Positions 22,557-39,880 of a DNA stretch of 64,000 nt are shown here, one piece after another (positions within the stretch are counted from its first letter, which is position 1; every line of letters starts with the position of its first letter). The DNA is taken from assembly GCF_002847305.1 (NCBI RefSeq), contig NZ_CP025408.1, forward strand, positions 310,001 through 374,000, written 5' to 3'. This DNA is from Paracoccus tegillarcae (lineage in GTDB: Bacteria; Pseudomonadota; Alphaproteobacteria; Rhodobacterales; Rhodobacteraceae). The notes beneath the pieces are model-generated. The model did no database searches and was not told the DNA's origin. It saw only the letters and a list, made by a program, of their open reading frames with translations. A program made the translations under genes and the position numbers.

Positions 22557-23021
22557 TCAGAATCCCTGCAGGTCGCGCAATTGAAAGGTGCGTTGCGCTG
22601 TATGGCGCATTCGGCAGTCGGCAGCCGAGATGACCCGCATCGAGCCATCGCCGTATCGGTCATAGGCAAGCGTGCAATCCGCGTCACGAAAGGCGATCCA
22701 CGCGCGCTGCGCCGTCAGCAGCGCATCGGCAAGGCCGGGCTGGTCGGAAAAGGCGTCGCGGGTTTTCTGGTATTCGCGGTTCAGCAGGCTGTCCCAATCG
22801 TTTGTTTCAGCCATCATGCACTGGCTGATGGCAAAGGTCGTGTCGGGTTGTTCCTGAGCGCTGGAACAGGCCGAGGCGGCGTTACCGACGCAGTCTGGCG
22901 TGCCTTCGCCCCGCGCGGTCGCGTCAAAGCAGGCCTCGACCGCGCCCGGTTCGACCGATGCCTCTTGCGCGGCCAATGGGGCCGACAGCAACAGGAGGGC
23001 AAGCAGTGGATATCGCATCAT
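22557..23021 (-). CDS. LprI-like (DUF1311) secreted protein in the liu operon
   Basis: A 154-residue protein with a clear signal peptide ([20 protein letters not shown]) and a DUF1311/LprI domain: [38 protein letters not shown], then [19 protein letters not shown]. Family members are periplasmic, and LprI of Mycobacterium inhibits lysozyme. Six or more cysteines suggest disulfides. It overlaps the AMP-ligase stop by four bases and precedes liuB by one base, so it is cotranscribed with catabolic enzymes for no obvious reason. Confidence 0.85.
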
Positions 23022-24550
23022 TCGGCCTCCGCCAGTTTGCGCAGCTCTCGCCGCATGACCTTGCCCGTGACCGTCATTGGCAGGGCGTCCAGAAAGGCGA
23101 TCTCGCGCGGGTAGGAATGGGCTGCGGACAAGCGCCTTGCGTGGGTTTGCAGCTCAACGCCCAGTTCATCCGACGCATGAAAACCATCTCGCAAGACAAT
23201 GTAAGCCTTGACGATTTCGGTGCGTACCGGATCAGGCTTGCCGATCACGCCGGCCTGCGCAACGGCTGGATGTTTCAGCAGGCAATCCTCTATCTCGGAC
23301 GGGCCGATGCGGTAACCGGCGCTGGTGATCACATCGTCGTCGCGCCCGACAAAGCGGATATAGCCGTCCTCGATCACGCCCCGGTCGCCGGTCACGAGCC
23401 AATCGCCGCGAAACTTCTGCGCGGTGGCATCAGAGCGGTTCCAATATTCCAACATCATGCTGGCCGCGCCGCGTCGCACGGCGATATCGCCCTCGCTCTC
23501 GGTCGGCTCGCCGGTTTGGTCGATGATCTGCACATCGAACCCCGGCACGGCCTTGCCGATGGCGCCCGGTTGGGCGGCAAACAGCGCGCCCGATGATGCG
23601 GCCACCATGTTGCATTCGGTCTGGCCGTAGAATTCGTTGATCGTCAGCCCAAAGGCCTGCCTGCCCCAATCCAGCATCTCGGCCCCAAGCGTCTCTCCGC
23701 CCGATGCGACGCTGCGCAGTCCGGGAATGGAAATGTCGGCGGCTTTCAGCATCTTCAGCGCGGTCGGCGGGAAAAAGACGTTCCGCACGCCGCAATCGGC
23801 AATCAGACGGGACACGGCGGCGGGGTCGAACTTGGCCATCCGTGCCGCGACGACAGGAACGCCAAGCGCCAGACCCGGCATCAGAACGTCGAACAGCCCG
23901 CCGATCCATGCCCAATCGGCGGGGGTCCACAGGCAATCGCCGTCTTGGCCAAGCTGATCGTGGCTCATGCTGACGCCAGGCAGATGGCCGGTCAGAACGC
24001 GATGCCCGTGCAGCGCGCCTTTGGGTGCGCCGGTCGTGCCAGAGGTATAGATGATGACCGCCGGATCTGCCGGGCCGGTCGCCACGACCTTCAACGGCCC
24101 CGCATCTGGCAGGCCGTCTTCCGGCACAATGACGCGCAGGTCGGGAAAGCCTGCCAGCATCTCGCGGCCCTCAGCATCCGCGAGCACGGTGCGGATGCCG
24201 GCATCACGCAGGCGCAGGTCCAGTGCGTCAGGCCCGAACAGTTTGAACAGCGGCACCGAGATTGCGCCCGAGGCCCAGATCGCCAGATGGGCAGCAGCGG
24301 TCCAGGCAGACTGCGTGCGCAGCACCGCCACGCGGTCGCCGGCCTGCGCATCAAGCACGGCGGCGAGGCGTGCGGTCATCGAGGTCAGATCACCAAAGCT
24401 GACCCGATGCGGGCTGCCGTCATATTCGATGATCGCCGTCGCATCGGCGGCATGGTTCAGGCATTGCTCGGCCATGTTCAGCCGCGCCGGCAGGTTCCAG
24501 TGAAACCCGTCGCGCATTGCCTGATAATCATGGCCGGTCGGTGCTGTCAT
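23018..24550 (-). CDS. AMP-forming acyl-CoA synthetase
   Basis: A 510-residue ANL-superfamily enzyme that activates an acid through an acyl-AMP and joins it to CoA. Motifs are VIIYTSGTTGAPKGALHGH near 165, INEFYGQTECNM near 300, and the hinge and C-terminal Lys region VTGDRGVIEDGYIRFVGRDD and LPMTVTGKVMRRELR. Inside a leucine/isovalerate operon it plausibly activates isovalerate or a related branched acid, or acetoacetate produced by LiuE, which is inference. It has four-base overlaps with the genes on each side. Confidence 0.88.
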   Translation of the reverse strand: MTAPTGHDYQAMRDGFHWNLPARLNMAEQCLNHAADATAIIEYDGSPHRVSFGDLTSMTARLAAVLDAQAGDRVAVLRTQSAWTAAAHLAIWASGAISVPLFKLFGPDALDLRLRDAGIRTVLADAEGREMLAGFPDLRVIVPEDGLPDAGPLKVVATGPADPAVIIYTSGTTGAPKGALHGHRVLTGHLPGVSMSHDQLGQDGDCLWTPADWAWIGGLFDVLMPGLALGVPVVAARMAKFDPAAVSRLIADCGVRNVFFPPTALKMLKAADISIPGLRSVASGGETLGAEMLDWGRQAFGLTINEFYGQTECNMVAASSGALFAAQPGAIGKAVPGFDVQIIDQTGEPTESEGDIAVRRGAASMMLEYWNRSDATAQKFRGDWLVTGDRGVIEDGYIRFVGRDDDVITSAGYRIGPSEIEDCLLKHPAVAQAGVIGKPDPVRTEIVKAYIVLRDGFHASDELGVELQTHARRLSAAHSYPREIAFLDALPMTVTGKVMRRELRKLAEAE

Positions 24551-31627: not shown

Positions 31628-32903
31628 GTGACCAAGACCGTTTCCCTGACCGATCGTCTGCTGTCCCTGCGGGAATTGCCGCCAACGCCGGCCTATCTCT
31701 ACGATGCGCAGGGTCTGGCGGCACGCATCGCGCTGCTGCACGATCACATGGGCGCGCTGTTTCAGCCCAGCTTTGCGATCAAGTCGAACCCCAATCTGGC
31801 GTTGTTGCGCCTGATCGCGGAACAGGTCGCGCATATCGACGCATCGTCGTTTCACGAGGTCGAACGCGCCCTGTCCATCGGCGTCGCGCCCCACCGCATC
31901 AGTTGGTCCGGCCCCGGCAAGCGCCAGTCCGAACTGGCGGTACTGGCCGGGCGCGGCATCACAATCGTGGTCGAGGCCGAGGATGAAATCGACGCGCTGG
32001 CGGGGATTTGCACCGATCTTACAGCCCCCCAACGCGTGGTCCTGCGGATCAACCCAGATCACGTGCCGCGCGGCTTTGGCGCATCGATGTCGGGCAAGCC
32101 CAGCCAGTTCGGGATCGACGAGCCTCGCGCAACCCATGCCATTGACCGGATCGAGGGCTCAGCCGGGCTGCATCTGGCCGGGTTTCACGCCTATACCGGA
32201 TCGAACTGTCTGGCAGCCGAACCGATCGCCGAGAATTTCGCCAACCTCGCCCGCATATTCACCCAGGCAGCAGCGCATCTGGGTCGCCCGGTTGAAACGC
32301 TGATCTTTGGCGCGGGCTTCGGCCTGCCCTATCATCCGGGCCAAGAGCCGCTGGATATCGCCGAGGTCGCGGCTGGCAGGACCGGCGCTGGCGTCGTTAT
32401 CTGATGATCCGCTGACCGCCGATGCCGCCCGGCTGCTGGAAATCGGCCGCTGGATCACCGGCCCGAATGGCGCGCTGGTGACCGAGGTGCTGTCGGTCAA
32501 GGAAAGCCGGGGCACGCGGATCGCCGTTTGCGATGCCGGGTTCAACAATCATCTGGCCGCAGCCGGCATGATGGGTGCGGTTTTTCGAAAGAACTACCCC
32601 TTTGCCGTCTTGCGTTGCGCACGGGGCGGCGATGAGGTCGAGCATCAGATCGCCGGCCCGCTTTGCACCTCGATCGACACCATGGCGCGCAAGCTGATGT
32701 TGCCGCCGCTGTCGCGCGGCGATGTGCTGGCGGTGCTGCTGTCGGGTGCCTATGGGCTGACCGCCAGCCCGACCCGTTTCATCAGTCACCCCGAACCCGG
32801 CGAATACCTGATCGACGCGGGCGGCGGCCTGACCGATATCAGCGAAAGCCGGTTGAACGCATCCGGCAGCCTGATGGCTGACCTGACCGAGGCACGCGCA
32901 TGA
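31628..32903 (+). pseudogene. Fold-type III PLP-dependent decarboxylase, split by a +1 frameshift
   Basis: The first frame (31628-32404, GTG start) gives the alanine-racemase-like barrel: PTPAYLYDAQGL near 20, PLP lysine in FAIKSNPNLALL near 52, and LHLAGFHAYTGSN. The second frame carries the C-terminal beta domain to 32903 (VLSVKESRGTRIAVCDAGFN, then YGLTASPTRFISHPEPGEY). They join at about 32365-32390, where one extra base shifts the frame and DIAEVA continues as LAGPALASLSDDPL. Joined length is about 424 residues, normal for ornithine/diaminopimelate-type decarboxylases and for those tied to ligase-plus-carrier loci. The downstream ATGA overlap is intact. The frameshift may be a recent mutation or a sequence error. 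Confidence 0.8.
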
Positions 32904-33814
32904 GCACGCCGATATCCGTCAAGATCATGGGTTTTCCGCGCTCGGGCACCTCGTTGCTGCAACGTTTGCTGGACGCCCATCCGCAGGTTTATGCCCCGCC
33001 AGAACCTTATGTCTTTTCGGGCGCCGCGCGCATGATCGCGGAAAGCCGCGGCGAGGGGCCTGATCTGGGGATGCTGACCGGGCTCAGCTTTGCCGGGTTT
33101 CCGCCCGGACAGGTGATCGACCGGGTCCGGCGCTTTGCCACCTCTTTCCTCGATGAGGGCGCAGCCGCGGCAGGCAAGCCTGTCTGGGCCGAGAAATCCG
33201 CCTTCGACATTTTTGACCTGCCCCAGATCGAGACGCTGCTGGCCGGTCATTACCGTTTCATCTGCGTGATCCGCAATCCGCTGGACGTGGTTGCCTCGAT
33301 GAAGGACCTGAGCGATGTGATGGGCCACAACGTGCCTGCGATGCGGCCCTACCTGATGCGGCATGACAGCTTTTGGCTGGCCTATGCCGAGGCCTGGCGC
33401 GAGCAGACGCAGGCGTTGCTGGATTTCCACGACCGGCAGGGCGACGCCTCGCTGCTTTATCGCTATGAGGATCTGACCGCAGACCCTGATACGCAACTGG
33501 CCCTGATCGCCGATCATATGGGCATCACGGCCTTTCCCGCAGGGGGCGGCCAGCCCGGCGACAAGATCGGGTTGGGCGACTGGAAGACTTTCGCCACCAC
33601 CGGCATCAGCCGCGCACCTGTTGCCCGGTGGCGCAAGACCCTGCCTCGCTCATCGGCGGCGGCGGTGCTTGAGATTGTTGCGCCACTGATGCAGCGGCTG
33701 GACTATGACCGCCCGACCATTCGCGCCCCGCGCAGCCGCGACGAGCGCATCACCCAGTATCAACGCGCCAAGCGGCTGGCGATGGAAACGCGCGACAAGG
33801 GTCAGCCCTCATGA
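32900..33814 (+). CDS. PAPS-dependent sulfotransferase family protein
   Basis: A 304-residue enzyme with the 5'-phosphosulfate loop GFPRSGTSLLQRLLDAHP at residues 11-28 and the 3'-phosphate motif FICVIRNPLDVVASMKDL near 115. A later Tyr-Glu-Asp segment, LLYRYEDLTADP, is typical of carbohydrate and amine sulfotransferases. The substrate is unknown. It overlaps the decarboxylase and the ligase by four bases each. This coupling suggests that the sulfated product is an intermediate or end product of the same pathway. Confidence 0.88.
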   Translation: MSTPISVKIMGFPRSGTSLLQRLLDAHPQVYAPPEPYVFSGAARMIAESRGEGPDLGMLTGLSFAGFPPGQVIDRVRRFATSFLDEGAAAAGKPVWAEKSAFDIFDLPQIETLLAGHYRFICVIRNPLDVVASMKDLSDVMGHNVPAMRPYLMRHDSFWLAYAEAWREQTQALLDFHDRQGDASLLYRYEDLTADPDTQLALIADHMGITAFPAGGGQPGDKIGLGDWKTFATTGISRAPVARWRKTLPRSSAAAVLEIVAPLMQRLDYDRPTIRAPRSRDERITQYQRAKRLAMETRDKGQPS

Positions 33815-35253
33815 CCCACCCGCTTTTACGCTTTGCCGAACTTGCGTCGCAGGACCCGGATGCGCTGGCCGTCATTCAGGGCGACCACGCGCTTGGCCGC
33901 GCCGACCTGATCGGGCGGGCCGGCGCGCTGGCCCAGGGCCTGTCGCTGGCCTCTGGTGCGCGTGTGTTGGTTCAACTGCCCAACAGCCCCGACATGATGG
34001 CGCTGGTCCTGGCGATCTGGGCGCAAGGCGGGCTGCCGATGTTTCTGTCTGCCAAATCGCCCGCAACCCATCTCGACGCGATCATCGCACGCCACGCACC
34101 GGCGCATGTGATAGACATCGCGGCGCTTGAGGCATTGCCCGCCGGTCAGGCGTCGCTGGATCTGCCGGTCTTGCCGGGTGACGCCGATGCCTCTGTTGTG
34201 TTCACCTCCGGTTCGACCGGGATGCCCAAGGGTGTGGTGCAAAAGGCCGCGACCCTGACCAGCGGGGCCGACCGCGTGGCACGGGTCATGGGTTATGGGC
34301 CATCCGAACGGATCCTCGTGCCGGTCCCATTCGCCCATGATTATGGCTGGGGGCAGATGCTGTCCTGTTTCATCGGCGGCCATACGTTGATCCTGCCCTC
34401 GCGCGACAGTCTGGTCGATATCAGCCGCACGATCAGCCGCGACGTCCCTACCGTTCTGGCCGGCGTGCCTTCGCTGTTTGCCGGGCTGTTGCACGGCATT
34501 TCGGACTTTGAGAATAGCCAGACAGACAGTCTGCGCATCGTGAGCTCCACCGGTTCGCCCTTTGCGCCCGCGCTTTACGCGGCGCTGCGCACGCGGCTGC
34601 CCGATGTCCGTATCCTGCGCAATTTCGGACTGACCGAGACCTATCGCAGTTGCTGCCTGCCGCCCGAGATGGCCCAGGGCGAGGCTGACAGCGCAGGCCG
34701 TCCCATCGAGGGCGTGACCATCGCCATCGCCGGCCCCGACGGGCGGCCCCTGCCCGCGGATCAGGAGGGTGAGGTGGTGCATCTGGGCGCGGGTGTCTTT
34801 GATCGCTATCTGGACGACCCCGATGCGACCGCCCGCAGCCGCCGTACCTGCGGCGATCTGGGGATAGGTGTGTTTACCGGCGATATCGGGCGGCTGGATC
34901 AGGACGGTTTCCTGCATCTTGCCGGCCGCCGCGACCGGCTGGTCAAGTCGATGGACATCCGCCTCAACCTGAGCGATGTCGAAGCCGCGCTGACGGCGCT
35001 GGCCATGGTCACTGAAACCGCCGTGATCGCCCGCCCCAATCCGATGAGCGGCGTCGAACTGGTCGCTTTCTGCACCGCGCGGCCCGACATCACCGCCCCC
35101 GATATCCGCCGCGCTGCCAACCGCGCGCTGCCCGCGCATATGCGCCCCCGAGAGATCACCGTGCTGGACGCCCTGCCCCGCACGCCTGTAGGCAAAACCG
35201 ACTACCCCGCGCTGGCCAACTGGTCCGCATCCACACAGAAAGAAACCCTATGA
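33811..35253 (+). CDS. AMP-forming acyl/aryl/aminoacyl ligase feeding the carrier protein
   Basis: A 480-residue ANL-superfamily enzyme: P-loop SVVFTSGSTGMPKGVVQKA near 127-145, NFGLTETYRSCCLP near 275, VFTGDIGRLDQDGFLHLAGR near 355, and a C-terminal catalytic Lys in TPVGKTDYPAL. Unlike CoA synthetases it is followed at once by a stand-alone carrier, so it likely loads that carrier, as DltA or exosortase-associated ligases do. The acid activated cannot be read from the sequence. Confidence 0.88.
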   Translation: MTHPLLRFAELASQDPDALAVIQGDHALGRADLIGRAGALAQGLSLASGARVLVQLPNSPDMMALVLAIWAQGGLPMFLSAKSPATHLDAIIARHAPAHVIDIAALEALPAGQASLDLPVLPGDADASVVFTSGSTGMPKGVVQKAATLTSGADRVARVMGYGPSERILVPVPFAHDYGWGQMLSCFIGGHTLILPSRDSLVDISRTISRDVPTVLAGVPSLFAGLLHGISDFENSQTDSLRIVSSTGSPFAPALYAALRTRLPDVRILRNFGLTETYRSCCLPPEMAQGEADSAGRPIEGVTIAIAGPDGRPLPADQEGEVVHLGAGVFDRYLDDPDATARSRRTCGDLGIGVFTGDIGRLDQDGFLHLAGRRDRLVKSMDIRLNLSDVEAALTALAMVTETAVIARPNPMSGVELVAFCTARPDITAPDIRRAANRALPAHMRPREITVLDALPRTPVGKTDYPALANWSASTQKETL

Positions 35254-35492
35254 CCGACCTTGCCACCCGCCTGCACGCCTTCATCGCCGAAGATGCAGGA
35301 CTGGACGCCGCCGAGTTCACCGCCGATACGGAATTGTTCTCAGAGGGCTATATCGACAGCTTCACCATGACCTCGGTAATCGGCTGGCTGGAAGAGGAAA
35401 CCGGCATCACCATCGCCCAATCGGCCGTGACGCTGGAAAACTTCGACACCATCAACCGGATGGTCGCATTCGTGGCGCGCGAAAAGGGCTAA
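35250..35492 (+). CDS. Stand-alone acyl/peptidyl carrier protein
   Basis: An 80-residue four-helix protein with the phosphopantetheine attachment site in SEGYIDSFTM (Ser37 preceded by Asp36), followed by WLEEETGITIAQSAVTLENF typical of helix III. It is acidic and has no fatty-acid-synthase context. The ATG overlaps the ligase stop. It is expected to carry the ligase product as a thioester to a transferase. Confidence 0.9.
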   Translation: MTDLATRLHAFIAEDAGLDAAEFTADTELFSEGYIDSFTMTSVIGWLEEETGITIAQSAVTLENFDTINRMVAFVAREKG

Positions 35493-35501
35493 AGAAAAAG
35501 A

Positions 35502-36497
35502 ATGGATTTTGAACGGCTCACTCTCGAGAACGAGTCCGAAATTCTTGCTTTGTTGCAGGATGTCTGGCCGCGTCTTTATGGTGCGACCGGCTGTCCGCAA
35601 TTTTCAGCCGACTATCTGCGCTGGCTCTATGGCGGGCCAGACTGCTCACGTCATCTGTTGCTTGGCTGCCGAGAAAAGGGGCGATTGGTCGGGCTGAAAG
35701 CCTATCTGTCGCGCGACCTTCTATTGGACGGCCAAGCGCGATCAGCCAGCCTTTCAACACATCTGACCATCCGGCCAGACCTTGATCCGGCGTCACGTCT
35801 GGCCATCGCCGCAGAGCTGTCTCGGCTGCACCCGCTGACAAACGATGGCGCGCACGATCAGCGCGACGCGCTACTTGCCTTTTTCGAAGGAAATAAGACG
35901 CTCGTCCGCAATATCACGCGGATGGCCATGCAGCAAAAGCTGAACCTTGTTTCGTTGCCGTTCACGCAGGCGATTGTTAACGTCCGCAAGGTCAATGCAG
36001 CTGCCGCAGAGTTCGACAATGTTTCAGTGCGCCAGATCCAACTGGCCGGCGTTCGAGAAATGGTCAGTCGTCTTTTATCGATCGCCCCAGAGAGCCAACT
36101 CGTTTGGTGCCCTACAAATGCCATGCGCATTCATCATCTTTCCCAGGCTCCGGGCTCCCTTGTCCTGATCGCTGAAAACGATCAGGGGCAGGTGGATGGC
36201 CTCTTAGGCGGGTATCGTATGGATTGGCTGAAAAATGGCTCGGTAACTCAAATGTTCATTATCGAAAGTCTGATCACCAGCGGGACCGCGACGTCCGCGA
36301 AATTATTGGCCGAAGCCGCACAGTACAGCGCGATGCAGGGTTTTCGCGGCGTGGTGATAGAGAATTCAACTATGATCGAAGCTGCCGACGCCCGACGATT
36401 GGGCATCATGCCGACTCAACGCGAGATGATTTTGGCGGTCCGTTCGCGCCTGCCACTTCCTGATCCGATCAAATCGTTCTCGCTGGATGTGAAATAA
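35502..36497 (+). CDS. GNAT-like acyltransferase (tentative)
   Basis: The 331-residue protein has an N-terminal half like GNAT-fold proteins (EILALLQDVWPRLYG, FSADYLRWLYGGPD and GRLVGLKAYLSRDLLL near 62-77) and a second related-looking half (LVLIAENDQGQVDGLLGGYR near 222 and a C-terminal helix-strand region). I infer a double GNAT fold, which could take the group from the carrier. It begins nine bases past the carrier stop, after a purine-rich AAGAAAAAGA. Codon use becomes AT-richer from here; a sampled row at 36061 is about 52% GC. Confidence 0.55.
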   Translation: MDFERLTLENESEILALLQDVWPRLYGATGCPQFSADYLRWLYGGPDCSRHLLLGCREKGRLVGLKAYLSRDLLLDGQARSASLSTHLTIRPDLDPASRLAIAAELSRLHPLTNDGAHDQRDALLAFFEGNKTLVRNITRMAMQQKLNLVSLPFTQAIVNVRKVNAAAAEFDNVSVRQIQLAGVREMVSRLLSIAPESQLVWCPTNAMRIHHLSQAPGSLVLIAENDQGQVDGLLGGYRMDWLKNGSVTQMFIIESLITSGTATSAKLLAEAAQYSAMQGFRGVVIENSTMIEAADARRLGIMPTQREMILAVRSRLPLPDPIKSFSLDVK

Positions 36498-36498
36498 T

Positions 36499-38313
36499 TC
36501 AACTTCTGCCTGCAGGCCTCTTTCCCTCCAACCGCTGTTTGCGAGTTTCAAGACCCTCGATCGCGGCTTCCCCGATAGAGGCCCGTCTGGCGACATCGAT
36601 CAAGAGGTCAATCTGCGTGGAATTTGCGTGGGAGCGCGCAATATTGCACAAGATGGTAACCGTGCGCTTGTCAGGCACCGTTGACTCATCAGCTAACCTG
36701 TTCAGCAAACGCTCAATCCCTTCTCCGCTGCGCCCGGTCTTTACGTGCGCCTGCAAGGTCAGCGTATCCAGCTGTCTGCGTGAGTTCGGACCAAAGTCAT
36801 AGTCCCCTTGCTCCAACTCGGTCGCCATCTCGATTACCTCGTCGAAGCCGCCCGTCTGAAACAAATCGATGAACCCTTTCATAACATCGCGAACAGCCGA
36901 ATCCGATCTGTCGCGAAATTTCAGACGCTCGGTATCATGGCCGCGCGTTTCGGCGTATTTGAGCAGCAAATCGAAATCTGCCGGCCGGCCGACCTTAAAC
37001 AACGGCCCCCGAGCCAAAGCAAACAAGTGATCGGGGCGCTGATGAGCGGCTGTCAGGCTTTGCCGACCGGTTCGTATTTGATCATTGCCACTGTCGTCGT
37101 CGTCCCATGATCCGTCCAGCAAAGACGCGTAGCGGGGATCGAGAAACACCAATTGCAAATGATCCAATGCGTCGCGGTCACGCCCCAAACGCAACAGCGC
37201 GGTGACAAAGATGCGATGCAGTTCCATATCTGATGGTCGCTCAAGCAGCAGCGGGCCATCGCGCAAGACCAGCGGCTCTAGCAGGTTTGCGGCCGCCTCA
37301 AACTCGTCGGCCATGAGCAACGCATTGCCGTACCCGTGCGCCTCTATTACCTGCTGCCCCTCGGAACGGTCGTTGCATTGCTTTAGAAGGTCGGCGGTGA
37401 CTCGATCGCCCAAATTCGGTTTGGTGTGGTGCGGGCTGGATTCAAGAAACGTGTATTGAAAATCACTCAGGTAAGCCGCTTCCAATGCTGCAACGTATTC
37501 TACGTCGTCGTCGACTTCGTTTATAAAATTGGCGACAGCCGTGCGCTGCAGGCATTTTGACTGATATTGCGATATCAGTGCATCTTGCGCCGAGAAGGTT
37601 GATGGTTGCGAGACCGGCGACACCATTAACAGCATCAGCGCATGCTTGTTTGATTGACGCACTGCGTCATGGAACCTGCACAAGCTGTTTTCAACATCCT
37701 CGACGCCAAACTCGTGCAATTCGAAGCGTCCGGGATAGTCCGCCGTCATTCGTCTTGTCGGCTGCACATTCATATAGATCCCATTCGCGGAATCGTACCA
37801 TTGGCGTGTGCTGCCAACCACGCCCAAAATCACATCTGCTTCGGAAATATTTGCATAAGATGAATTGTAGATCCGGCGAATGCGGCGCATCTCGGCATCG
37901 GGATAAGCAACGCTGAAATGTAATTGCATATCGACAAGCTCATCGCCGACGGCGACCAGAGCCTCGTCCACGTTTTCGGGCCTCTGAGTTGCCCAGAGTA
38001 TTTCATTTGTCGCAACATCGAGGTTAAAAATATTGTAGCGCTGGAATTGTTTTACAGCGTCGCCAGGCATATCTGGGTTGTAGGGGCTTGATATGACGTT
38101 CTTCCCACCGATCATCAGCGCCTTTTCGATCGATCGAGCAAAACAGTTTCCGGCTACGAAGAATTTCGCGTTCTCAGCGATCATTTTATTCGATTTGATC
38201 TCAGGTCGCGCAAATGGAAACAGGCGATCTCGGCCTCGCTTTACGCTTGGATACATCCGGAGCTTATTGCCCGCTGCAATAGAATTGGCTTCTTCAACAG
38301 ACAGAATTTTCAT
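36499..38313 (-). CDS. GSCFA-domain protein with a C-terminal helical-repeat region
   Basis: This 604-residue protein has the family motif G-N-C-F-A-R at residues 55-60 (FFVAGNCFARSIE) and a second block, GVVGSTRQWYDSANGIYMNV, followed by LMLLMVSPVSQPSTFSAQDA. GSCFA proteins are SGNH-hydrolase-like and often sit in surface-polysaccharide loci; the Cys replaces the usual Ser of that motif. From about residue 320 on, the sequence looks like TPR-type helices. It is convergent with, and abuts, the preceding cluster. Base composition is much lower in GC (rows at 40-47%), indicating separate origin. Confidence 0.75.
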   Translation of the reverse strand: MKILSVEEANSIAAGNKLRMYPSVKRGRDRLFPFARPEIKSNKMIAENAKFFVAGNCFARSIEKALMIGGKNVISSPYNPDMPGDAVKQFQRYNIFNLDVATNEILWATQRPENVDEALVAVGDELVDMQLHFSVAYPDAEMRRIRRIYNSSYANISEADVILGVVGSTRQWYDSANGIYMNVQPTRRMTADYPGRFELHEFGVEDVENSLCRFHDAVRQSNKHALMLLMVSPVSQPSTFSAQDALISQYQSKCLQRTAVANFINEVDDDVEYVAALEAAYLSDFQYTFLESSPHHTKPNLGDRVTADLLKQCNDRSEGQQVIEAHGYGNALLMADEFEAAANLLEPLVLRDGPLLLERPSDMELHRIFVTALLRLGRDRDALDHLQLVFLDPRYASLLDGSWDDDDSGNDQIRTGRQSLTAAHQRPDHLFALARGPLFKVGRPADFDLLLKYAETRGHDTERLKFRDRSDSAVRDVMKGFIDLFQTGGFDEVIEMATELEQGDYDFGPNSRRQLDTLTLQAHVKTGRSGEGIERLLNRLADESTVPDKRTVTILCNIARSHANSTQIDLLIDVARRASIGEAAIEGLETRKQRLEGKRPAGRS

Positions 38314-38352
38314 CGTCGATCGGATATCTGGCGTTAGTCAAGACACACTAAA

Positions 38353-38428
38353 TGGTGGGCGGTGAGGGGCTCGAACCCCCGACATTTTCGGTGTAAACGA
38401 AACGCTCTACCAACTGAGCTAACCGCCC
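38353..38428 (-). tRNA. tRNA-Val (anticodon TAC)
   Basis: The minus strand folds into a complete cloverleaf: acceptor GGGCGGT/ACCGCCC, D arm GCTCAGTTGGTAGAGC, anticodon loop TTTACAC giving TAC, T arm GGGGGTTCGAGCCCCTC-like, and encoded CCA. Its 3' end faces the AT-rich GSCFA gene, a position used by integrating elements. Confidence 0.95.
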
Positions 38429-38441
38429 CACGACTGGCCTC

Positions 38442-39041
38442 TTAGCTGTTGCCGTCCAAGGTGGCAAGACGCAAGCTTTCATCCTCTTGCCAGATCTCGT
38501 GCTGGCCGTTTCGGATGACCTGAACCGCGCCCTGAAATTGCGCCATTTCGGCAAAACGCTCCATCGGCAATCCTAACGCCACGACCCGCATCATCCGCAG
38601 CGTGATCCCGTGGGTCACGATCAGCGCGGGGCCGGTCAGATCGTCAAGAAAGCTGCGGCAGCGCGCGCGCAAAGAGTCAAAGCCCTCGCCCTGCGGCGCC
38701 CCGTCATACCAGCCGAATTGGGACCCCGCGAAAAGCTGCGCATTTTGCGCCTTGATATCTTCGTAACGCTGCCCGCTGAAGCCGCCGATATCAATCTCGC
38801 ACAGGCGCTCATCCTCTTGATAGGGTTGACCGTCAAAGACGATTTGGGCGGTCTGGCGCGCGCGGCCCTGCGGGCTGGCGTAGCGCGCAGCCTCGATCCC
38901 GCTGACCAGCCGTGACTGGGCGTGCGCCTGGGCCGTGCCCAGATCGGTCAGGTTAGAGTTCATGCGACCCTGCATCCGCCCTTCGGCGTTCCAGACCGTC
39001 TGGCCATGACGCATCAGGTAAAGGTCTGGATAGTCGGGCAT
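38442..39041 (-). CDS. Histidine phosphatase family protein
   Basis: A 199-residue phosphoglycerate-mutase-type phosphatase. The phosphohistidine motif LYLMRHGQTVWNAEGRMQGR is at residues 7-26, the substrate-loop Arg in SPQGRARQTAQIV near 60, the acid in EIDIGGFSGQRYEDI, and the second His in ALIVTHGITLRMM near 150. The target is unknown, and a cobalamin role is not supported since the Cob genes are distant. ATG at 39041 is the natural start; the upstream residues lie opposite nothing conserved. Confidence 0.85.
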   Translation of the reverse strand: MPDYPDLYLMRHGQTVWNAEGRMQGRMNSNLTDLGTAQAHAQSRLVSGIEAARYASPQGRARQTAQIVFDGQPYQEDERLCEIDIGGFSGQRYEDIKAQNAQLFAGSQFGWYDGAPQGEGFDSLRARCRSFLDDLTGPALIVTHGITLRMMRVVALGLPMERFAEMAQFQGAVQVIRNGQHEIWQEDESLRLATLDGNS

Positions 39042-39118: not shown

Positions 39119-39880
39119 TCACCAGATGAAATCGTCCGCATCCAGCTGGCCGCGCCGGGTATCCTCGATCACCAGCCGGTGCGACCCATAGGTGAAGTGC
39201 ACGTCATTGCCGACCTGGTTCAGACGGGCCGAGACATCCGACCAGGTGTTCAGGCCGTTCCAGCTGCGCAGGTCGATATCATCATCGCCCGGCTCGAAAT
39301 CGGTAATGACGTCGCGCCCGGCGTCAAAGACAAAACGATCTGCCCCTTCATTGCCGGTCAACGTGTCGTATCCGTAGCCGCCATGCAGGGTGTCATTCCC
39401 CTCGCCGCCAACCAGACGATCAGCGCCACCGCCCGCAAACAGAAAGTCGTCGCCTTCGCCACCATTGGCAAAGTCATTGCCCGCGCCCAAATTGGCCCGG
39501 TCATTGCCCGAAGCGGCCCAGAGCGTGTCATTACCCGTCCCGCCCTCGACCGTGTCATTGCCCTCGCCCGGTTGCAGCATGTCGTGGCCCGCCCCGCCCG
39601 ACATGAAATCGTCTCCGCTCACATCGCGCAGGACGTCGTTGCCGTCGCTGCCATACATCCGGTCCTCGCCCTTGCCACCCTGGATGATGTCCCGGCCATT
39701 GCCGCCCTGCAGGTAGTCATTCTCATCGTCGCCGTTGATCGTGTCATTTCCAGCGCCGCCGAAGATGACGTCCTCGCCGTCCCGACCTGATATGATATCA
39801 GCCCACCGCGTGCCGCGCAGAAGGTCTGCCGCGTCCGTACGGTTTATCTGGCGGACCACTTGGCCCGCTTGCAAGGTCAA
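39119..39880 (-). CDS. RTX-type calcium-binding repeat protein
   Basis: A 253-residue protein almost wholly made of glycine/aspartate-rich nonapeptide repeats (GGAGNDTIN, GGNGRDIIQ, GGKGEDRMY, GGTGNDTLW, GGEGNDTLH and GGYGYDTLT). It ends in the serralysin-like C-terminal block FVFDAGRDVITDFEPGDDDI with DADDFIW. Such proteins are normally exported by type I secretion through a C-terminal signal and fold with calcium outside the cell. No ABC exporter or outer-membrane channel lies in the window, and no enzymatic domain is visible. It may be a short adhesin or matrix protein. Confidence 0.85.
   Translation of the reverse strand: MTLQAGQVVRQINRTDAADLLRGTRWADIISGRDGEDVIFGGAGNDTINGDDENDYLQGGNGRDIIQGGKGEDRMYGSDGNDVLRDVSGDDFMSGGAGHDMLQPGEGNDTVEGGTGNDTLWAASGNDRANLGAGNDFANGGEGDDFLFAGGGADRLVGGEGNDTLHGGYGYDTLTGNEGADRFVFDAGRDVITDFEPGDDDIDLRSWNGLNTWSDVSARLNQVGNDVHFTYGSHRLVIEDTRRGQLDADDFIW

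Follow-up and report, generated by a model that had tools for sequence, protein, structure and literature searches.

What do the six neighbouring genes at positions 31628 to 38313 of this stretch of the Paracoccus tegillarcae genome make together? The stretch (contig NZ_CP025408.1, positions 310,001 to 374,000; 64,000 nucleotides in all, here called the window) encodes a decarboxylase, a sulfotransferase, an AMP-forming ligase, a carrier protein, a GNAT-like protein and a GSCFA protein side by side. The module that they represent is real, conserved and rare, and its core is like that of the VinN/VinO/BtrK systems. We propose, at a probability of roughly 0.5 for the whole, that this cytosolic module assembles an omega-amino acyl group on a carrier protein and hands it on. 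The features, with their positions in the window, are these:

31628..32404, + strand: N-terminal half of the decarboxylase, which binds pyridoxal phosphate (PLP) and has the BtrK/VinO/LysA fold, ending at a premature stop (PF02784, 111 bits; TIGR03099 profile positions 24-253; best PDB match BtrK)
32307..32903, + strand: C-terminal sheet half of the decarboxylase, in another frame (mechanical open reading frame, or ORF, with homology from about 32370; PF00278, 56 bits; TIGR03099 profile positions 266-398)
32900..33814, + strand: sulfotransferase of the type that uses 3′-phosphoadenosine 5′-phosphosulfate (Sulfotransfer_3; PF13469, 72.8 bits)
33811..35253, + strand: AMP-forming ligase of the VinN type, with a side-chain carboxylate as the group that it is predicted to load (PF00501, 184 bits; PF13193)
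35250..35492, + strand: carrier protein of 80 amino acids, with attachment Ser37 in GYIDSFT (PF00550, 40 bits)
35502..36497, + strand: the GNAT-like gene, encoding a protein of 331 amino acids with an N-myristoyltransferase (NMT) fold and the C-terminus ...FSLDVK
36499..38313, - strand: convergent GSCFA protein (SGNH superfamily) with a long C-terminal extension (PF08885, 63.6 bits against a cut-off of 25)

The first-pass annotation read the first four genes as a chain joined by ATGA overlaps, with a GNAT-like gene nine bases on and a convergent GSCFA gene. Most of this stands: the overlaps are verified at 32900, 33811 and 35250, the GNAT-like gene starts nine bases past the carrier gene, the coordinates of the convergent gene agree, and Pfam matches uphold the sulfotransferase, ligase, carrier and GSCFA genes. 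The exception is the decarboxylase, taken there as one open gene; the ORF with the PF02784 domain stops at 32404 and the PF00278 domain runs on in the other frame to 32903, a break that the annotation missed. Promoter and terminator scans gave yields no higher than in shuffled sequence.

The substrate region of the ligase has VinN (3wvn) as its best PDB match. PMC7756342 proposes that Asp230 of VinN recognises the alpha-amino group of beta-methylaspartate, and Ser299 and Arg331 the alpha-carboxyl, with the beta-carboxyl being activated. The pocket of the window ligase keeps the equivalents of Asp230 and Arg331 and has a conservative change of Ser299 to Thr. This code, D/[ST]/R, is found in 17/17 ligases (the window and 16 related loci, a Sphingomonas exosortase-A locus included). 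Among the 21 PF00501 matches of the same genome, which served as a control, only the window ligase has it (0/20 of the others, some of which are partial or nonribosomal peptide synthetase domains that align poorly). As read from sequence, the pocket residues do not discriminate Asp from Glu. The carrier, with its attachment Ser, and the ligase both score over cut-off (PF00550 and PF00501). The window has a second AMP-binding ligase gene at 23018-24550 (- strand, L050; PF00501, 191.5 bits), which is without the VinN code.

A likeness to the ligase and decarboxylase of exosortase-A loci had been suggested. TIGR03098 and TIGR03099 are the best NCBIfam models for the two proteins, but neither protein reaches the equivalog cut-off: the ligase scores 255 bits against 592 and the decarboxylase halves 194 and 126 against 478, with an intact homologue (L012) at 311, also under. 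The pocket code extends to the exosortase-associated proteins. From 181 genomes we obtained 16 TIGR03098-like matches, 15 of them full-length once the incomplete L083 was dropped; the code is present in 5/5 whose stored locus contains a decarboxylase and in 1/10 whose stored locus does not (Fisher p 0.002). Of the six ligases above the TIGR03098 cut-off, five have it, the same five that have a decarboxylase in their stored loci, and so does the ligase of the exosortase locus L030. Because the same code occurs in five of these six, our analysis offers testable chemistry for the "exosortase-A associated" ligase/decarboxylase pair, typed in NCBIfam merely as hypothetical equivalogs.

The intact decarboxylase of Pseudorhodobacter aquimaris (L014) scores 187 bits against BtrK and 149 against the best diaminopimelate decarboxylase, and the N-terminal half of the window protein scores 96 and 83, respectively. 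In a tree of homologues (without the window pieces, and with L090 lacking usable sequence), BtrK groups with the ligase-linked decarboxylases L029 and L035-L037 (support 0.96), apart from LysA; the exosortase proteins form a separate clade, whose placement has a support of 0.22. By these scores and this tree, the decarboxylase is closer to the carrier-dependent BtrK/VinO type than to diaminopimelate decarboxylases. It could instead be an ordinary amino acid decarboxylase, a second one for diaminopimelate or ornithine, that has an unrelated acyl-CoA ligase as a chance neighbour. The fold family is shared and the two halves score 131 and 69 bits with TIGR01048 (LysA), under its cut-off of 297.9, but TIGR03099 and BtrK score higher, a true LysA is encoded elsewhere in the genome (479 bits), and the ligase has the VinN code. 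Moreover, the decarboxylase is found at E ≤ 1e-60 in 9/394 family genomes, with a ligase in the fetched stretch of all nine and a carrier detected in 6/9. We regard this alternative as very improbable.

TIGR03099 covers both decarboxylase pieces, and the conserved motifs are retained. With a coding-frame model fitted to the window, the frame switch falls at 32400, and homology puts the break at about 32370-32400. The 64 kb contain just one other direct same-strand switch without an in-frame ATG or GTG within 45 bases, at about 58036. Single-frame decarboxylases are found in relatives, including genome G723 (63-64% identity to the halves), G568 of the same genus (locus L066), L069 and L014. We reject a programmed frameshift, since the compared relatives' decarboxylases run uninterrupted in one frame; a single TGA in the G023 decarboxylase is simply where that protein ends, a little sooner than the others. 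The break may be a real mutation or an assembly error.

We found six loci with the NMT-like gene: the window, L012, L014, L015 (a Paracoccus metagenome-assembled genome, or MAG), L016 and L066. Contig limits affect three of them: L012 (fetched: 20,000 of the 22,204 bases of its contig) has an end of the NMT-like gene at the contig edge, L015 includes a contig end, and L016 is cut by a contig edge that leaves just a gene end. A carrier is encoded in 6/6, and a decarboxylase with a ligase in 5/6, counting the broken copy of the window; the ligase of L015 is just a 16-residue scrap at the contig end. That scrap (L015:11257-11304, - strand) is 94% identical to the window ligase, and the adjacent NMT-like gene is just 34% identical to its counterpart. 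The MAG contig of L016 is labelled Klebsiella pneumoniae; the other named carriers of the set are Pseudorhodobacter and Paracoccus, and the bin may be mislabelled.

Relatives have the decarboxylase, ligase and carrier in each other's company more than chance would explain, and the order decarboxylase-sulfotransferase-ligase is common to the window and P. aquimaris. The sulfotransferase, regarded in the first-pass annotation as an added member, is present in three of the six loci (window, L014, L016), with 38-39% identity for the homologues of L014 and L016. Close relatives of the ligase are rare (E ≤ 1e-60 in 3/394 family genomes and 3/125 genus genomes, the window genome included), and none was confirmed in the viral contigs searched with it. 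Two Paracoccus plasmids carry related triads together with genes for glycosyltransferase family 61, serine acetyltransferase and an SGNH protein or lipase, and the G723 decarboxylase/ligase pair adjoins ManC and Gmd. These polysaccharide genes support an envelope polymer as a possible target, as had been supposed.

The GNAT-like label can be made more precise. NMT is known from animals, fungi and plants, and its own C-terminal carboxylate acts as the base at the N-terminal glycine of the substrate. The cluster protein has a tandem GNAT fold that is NMT-like over its full length, and both VIA-align lists contain NMT chains only, among the 50 matches listed; identity to eukaryotic NMT is 10-16% among the matches listed. 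The final residue of the model is the last one aligned and lies opposite residue 496 of human NMT, the catalytic carboxylate position. The C-terminus falls exactly at D-[VIL]-K in 13/13 members of the protein group A3 and also in L066 (P0015 and the L012 fragment are not in the count). By modelled fold and C-terminus, the protein is specifically NMT-like. Other tandem GNATs, MshD and FemX, are absent among the matches listed and may thus still be relatives.

The protein is also rare. Among 198 family genomes it is found only in the window genome, and tblastn against plasmids gave zero matches. A profile search for further NMT-like proteins retained 10 of 7996 candidates, the window protein included, and an order-wide search gave matches in 7/390 genomes, strong only in the window genome and G568, with five weak and partial. 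PF01233 had no match in 299 Pseudomonadota genomes, but the control genomes had none either. A literature search for a bacterial NMT returned no relevant paper.

MBOAT genes occur in three of the six loci (L012, L014 and L016, in the last as a 53-residue end at the contig edge) and in L013 too. The best NCBIfam model for the L012 protein is DltB (157.5 against a cut-off of 375). In L012, L013 and L014 the MBOAT gene adjoins a gene for a protein whose N-terminus is hydrophobic and which has a GTST motif and, C-terminally, a D-D-x-H motif as in SGNH/DltD proteins; it has no Pfam match, and the SGNH/DltD assignment is our own reading of its motifs. The transfer to an acceptor that the first-pass annotation envisaged is supported by these DltB- and DltD-like partners.

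At first we took the GSCFA gene, which that annotation counted as an added member, to be there by chance, since 17 loci gave no match at 1e-5; a GSCFA gene inside the operon of the congener G568 overturned this view. There the genes run carrier-GSCFA-decarboxylase-ligase-NMT-like, all on the same strand and with overlapping ends (from mechanical ORFs and tblastn), and the GSCFA protein is 41% identical to that of the window over about 310 residues. GSCFA is thus present in two of the six loci, the window and L066. A role in transfer is suggested because, in these two operons, GSCFA stands where other loci have MBOAT and the DltD-like protein.

We predict the following pathway. An acidic amino acid, which could be Asp, 3-methyl-Asp or Glu, would be adenylated by the ligase at its side-chain carboxylate and loaded onto the phosphopantetheine of the 80-amino-acid carrier. 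The BtrK/VinO-type decarboxylase would then strip the alpha-carboxylate, only after loading, to give for example beta-alanyl- or gamma-aminobutyryl-S-carrier with a free primary amine; PMC11284099 states that in vicenistatin biosynthesis the decarboxylation by VinO needs prior thioester formation. Active-site residues, phylogeny and linkage make it highly probable that these two steps are the ancestral function, and the BtrK/VinN-type enzymes support the carrier-bound acid or amine derivative of the earlier reading. In a third step, tentative and on fold and C-terminus somewhat short of an even chance, the NMT-fold protein would use its own C-terminal carboxylate as the base and form an amide at the carrier-bound amine. 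Linkage suggests a fourth, in which O-transfer to a sugar polymer of the envelope may involve an SGNH-type protein (GSCFA here; the DltD-like protein with the DltB-like MBOAT in relatives) and the unit or the acceptor may be sulfated by the sulfotransferase. A stronger version, which we consider doubtful, is that the protein is a true bacterial relative of eukaryotic NMT with the same C-terminal-carboxylate catalysis, N-acylating a carrier-held beta- or gamma-amino acyl group for the decoration of an envelope polymer, with GSCFA as the transferase partner.

Several observations weigh against the proposal. One TIGR03098-like ligase (L076) has the pocket code and no decarboxylase in its stored locus. 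The sequence support for NMT is weak on its own (E 0.025): the window protein (P0005) matches no Pfam family at E values up to 10, and across 13 members Pfam gives NMT in three (best E 0.048) and NMT_C in one (0.012), with a general GNAT model scoring better (E 0.0013). The sulfotransferase was not found in the fetched parts of L012, L015 and L066, the first two of which end at contig edges. The GNAT-like and GSCFA genes (window 35500-38500) have a GC content of 0.51-0.56, the four genes upstream one of 0.635-0.666, and a tRNA-Val gene (38353-38428) adjoins the low-GC stretch; because of this composition and the tRNA gene alongside, the two genes may have been acquired separately. The window genome has no PF03062 match for an MBOAT (the control matched 3/14), and its best match to the DltD-like protein is non-significant at E 0.054; it is therefore probably incapable of the Dlt-like export of the relatives. 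The decarboxylation step is probably lost in this isolate unless the frameshift is an assembly error, and the module is probably incomplete here. Our literature search found no biochemical data for any member of the cluster.

Two other explanations draw on these points. The remaining genes may be a decaying remnant, non-functional or serving something else, as the frame switch and the missing MBOAT and DltD-like matches would allow. Against this, every other gene is open and keeps its family residues, the broken decarboxylase retains its motifs, and in the 18.7 kb fetched for the GSCFA-type operon of G568 an MBOAT homologue is likewise missing, which means that the absence may be normal; we think decay unlikely. 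The same missing MBOAT calls for another transferase, and the NMT-fold protein, encoded just past the carrier gene, could be a release enzyme, with the carrier-bound amino acyl group as its donor and an amine of a sugar, lipid or protein as the partner in amide formation. We give this slightly less credence than decay: in L012, L014 and L016 the MBOAT encoded alongside would already perform the release.

A bacterial NMT-fold protein with an exactly conserved NMT-like C-terminus beside a carrier could bear on the origin of NMT and on acyl transfer by tandem GNATs. The locus also offers genomic context for GSCFA, a member of the SGNH superfamily that appears without known activity in a 2022 review (PMC9487903). 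Farther along the window, at 39119-39880 (- strand), a small protein with RTX calcium-binding repeats (PF00353) is encoded.

Among known systems, VinN/VinL/VinO of vicenistatin and the proposed BolO/BolC/BolN of bolagladin have, like this cluster, a free-standing ligase with a pocket of the Asp230/Ser299/Arg331 type, a stand-alone carrier and a PLP decarboxylase (PMC11284099 and PMC7756342). The bolagladin acyl-CoA dehydrogenase BolQ has possible counterparts beside the L014 ligase, where N- and C-terminal acyl-CoA dehydrogenase domains are encoded in two separate ORFs (L014:17743-18956); L013 also has a piece. Unlike those systems, the six genes include no polyketide synthase or nonribosomal peptide synthetase and have instead the NMT-fold, GSCFA and sulfotransferase genes (and MBOAT in relatives). 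In the butirosin set BtrI/BtrJ/BtrK, BtrK is the closest solved decarboxylase. BtrJ is of a different ligase class, and the butirosin pathway acylates an aminoglycoside. The exosortase-A pair shares the best models and the pocket code, but the scores are under the equivalog cut-offs and the tree clade is separate. D-alanylation by DltABCD has the ligase and carrier in common, with MBOAT and a DltD-like protein added in L012, L013 and L014; it differs in that the cluster has an extra decarboxylase and the window genome has no MBOAT match. In contrast to eukaryotic N-myristoyltransferase, the cluster protein is bacterial and linked to a carrier protein.

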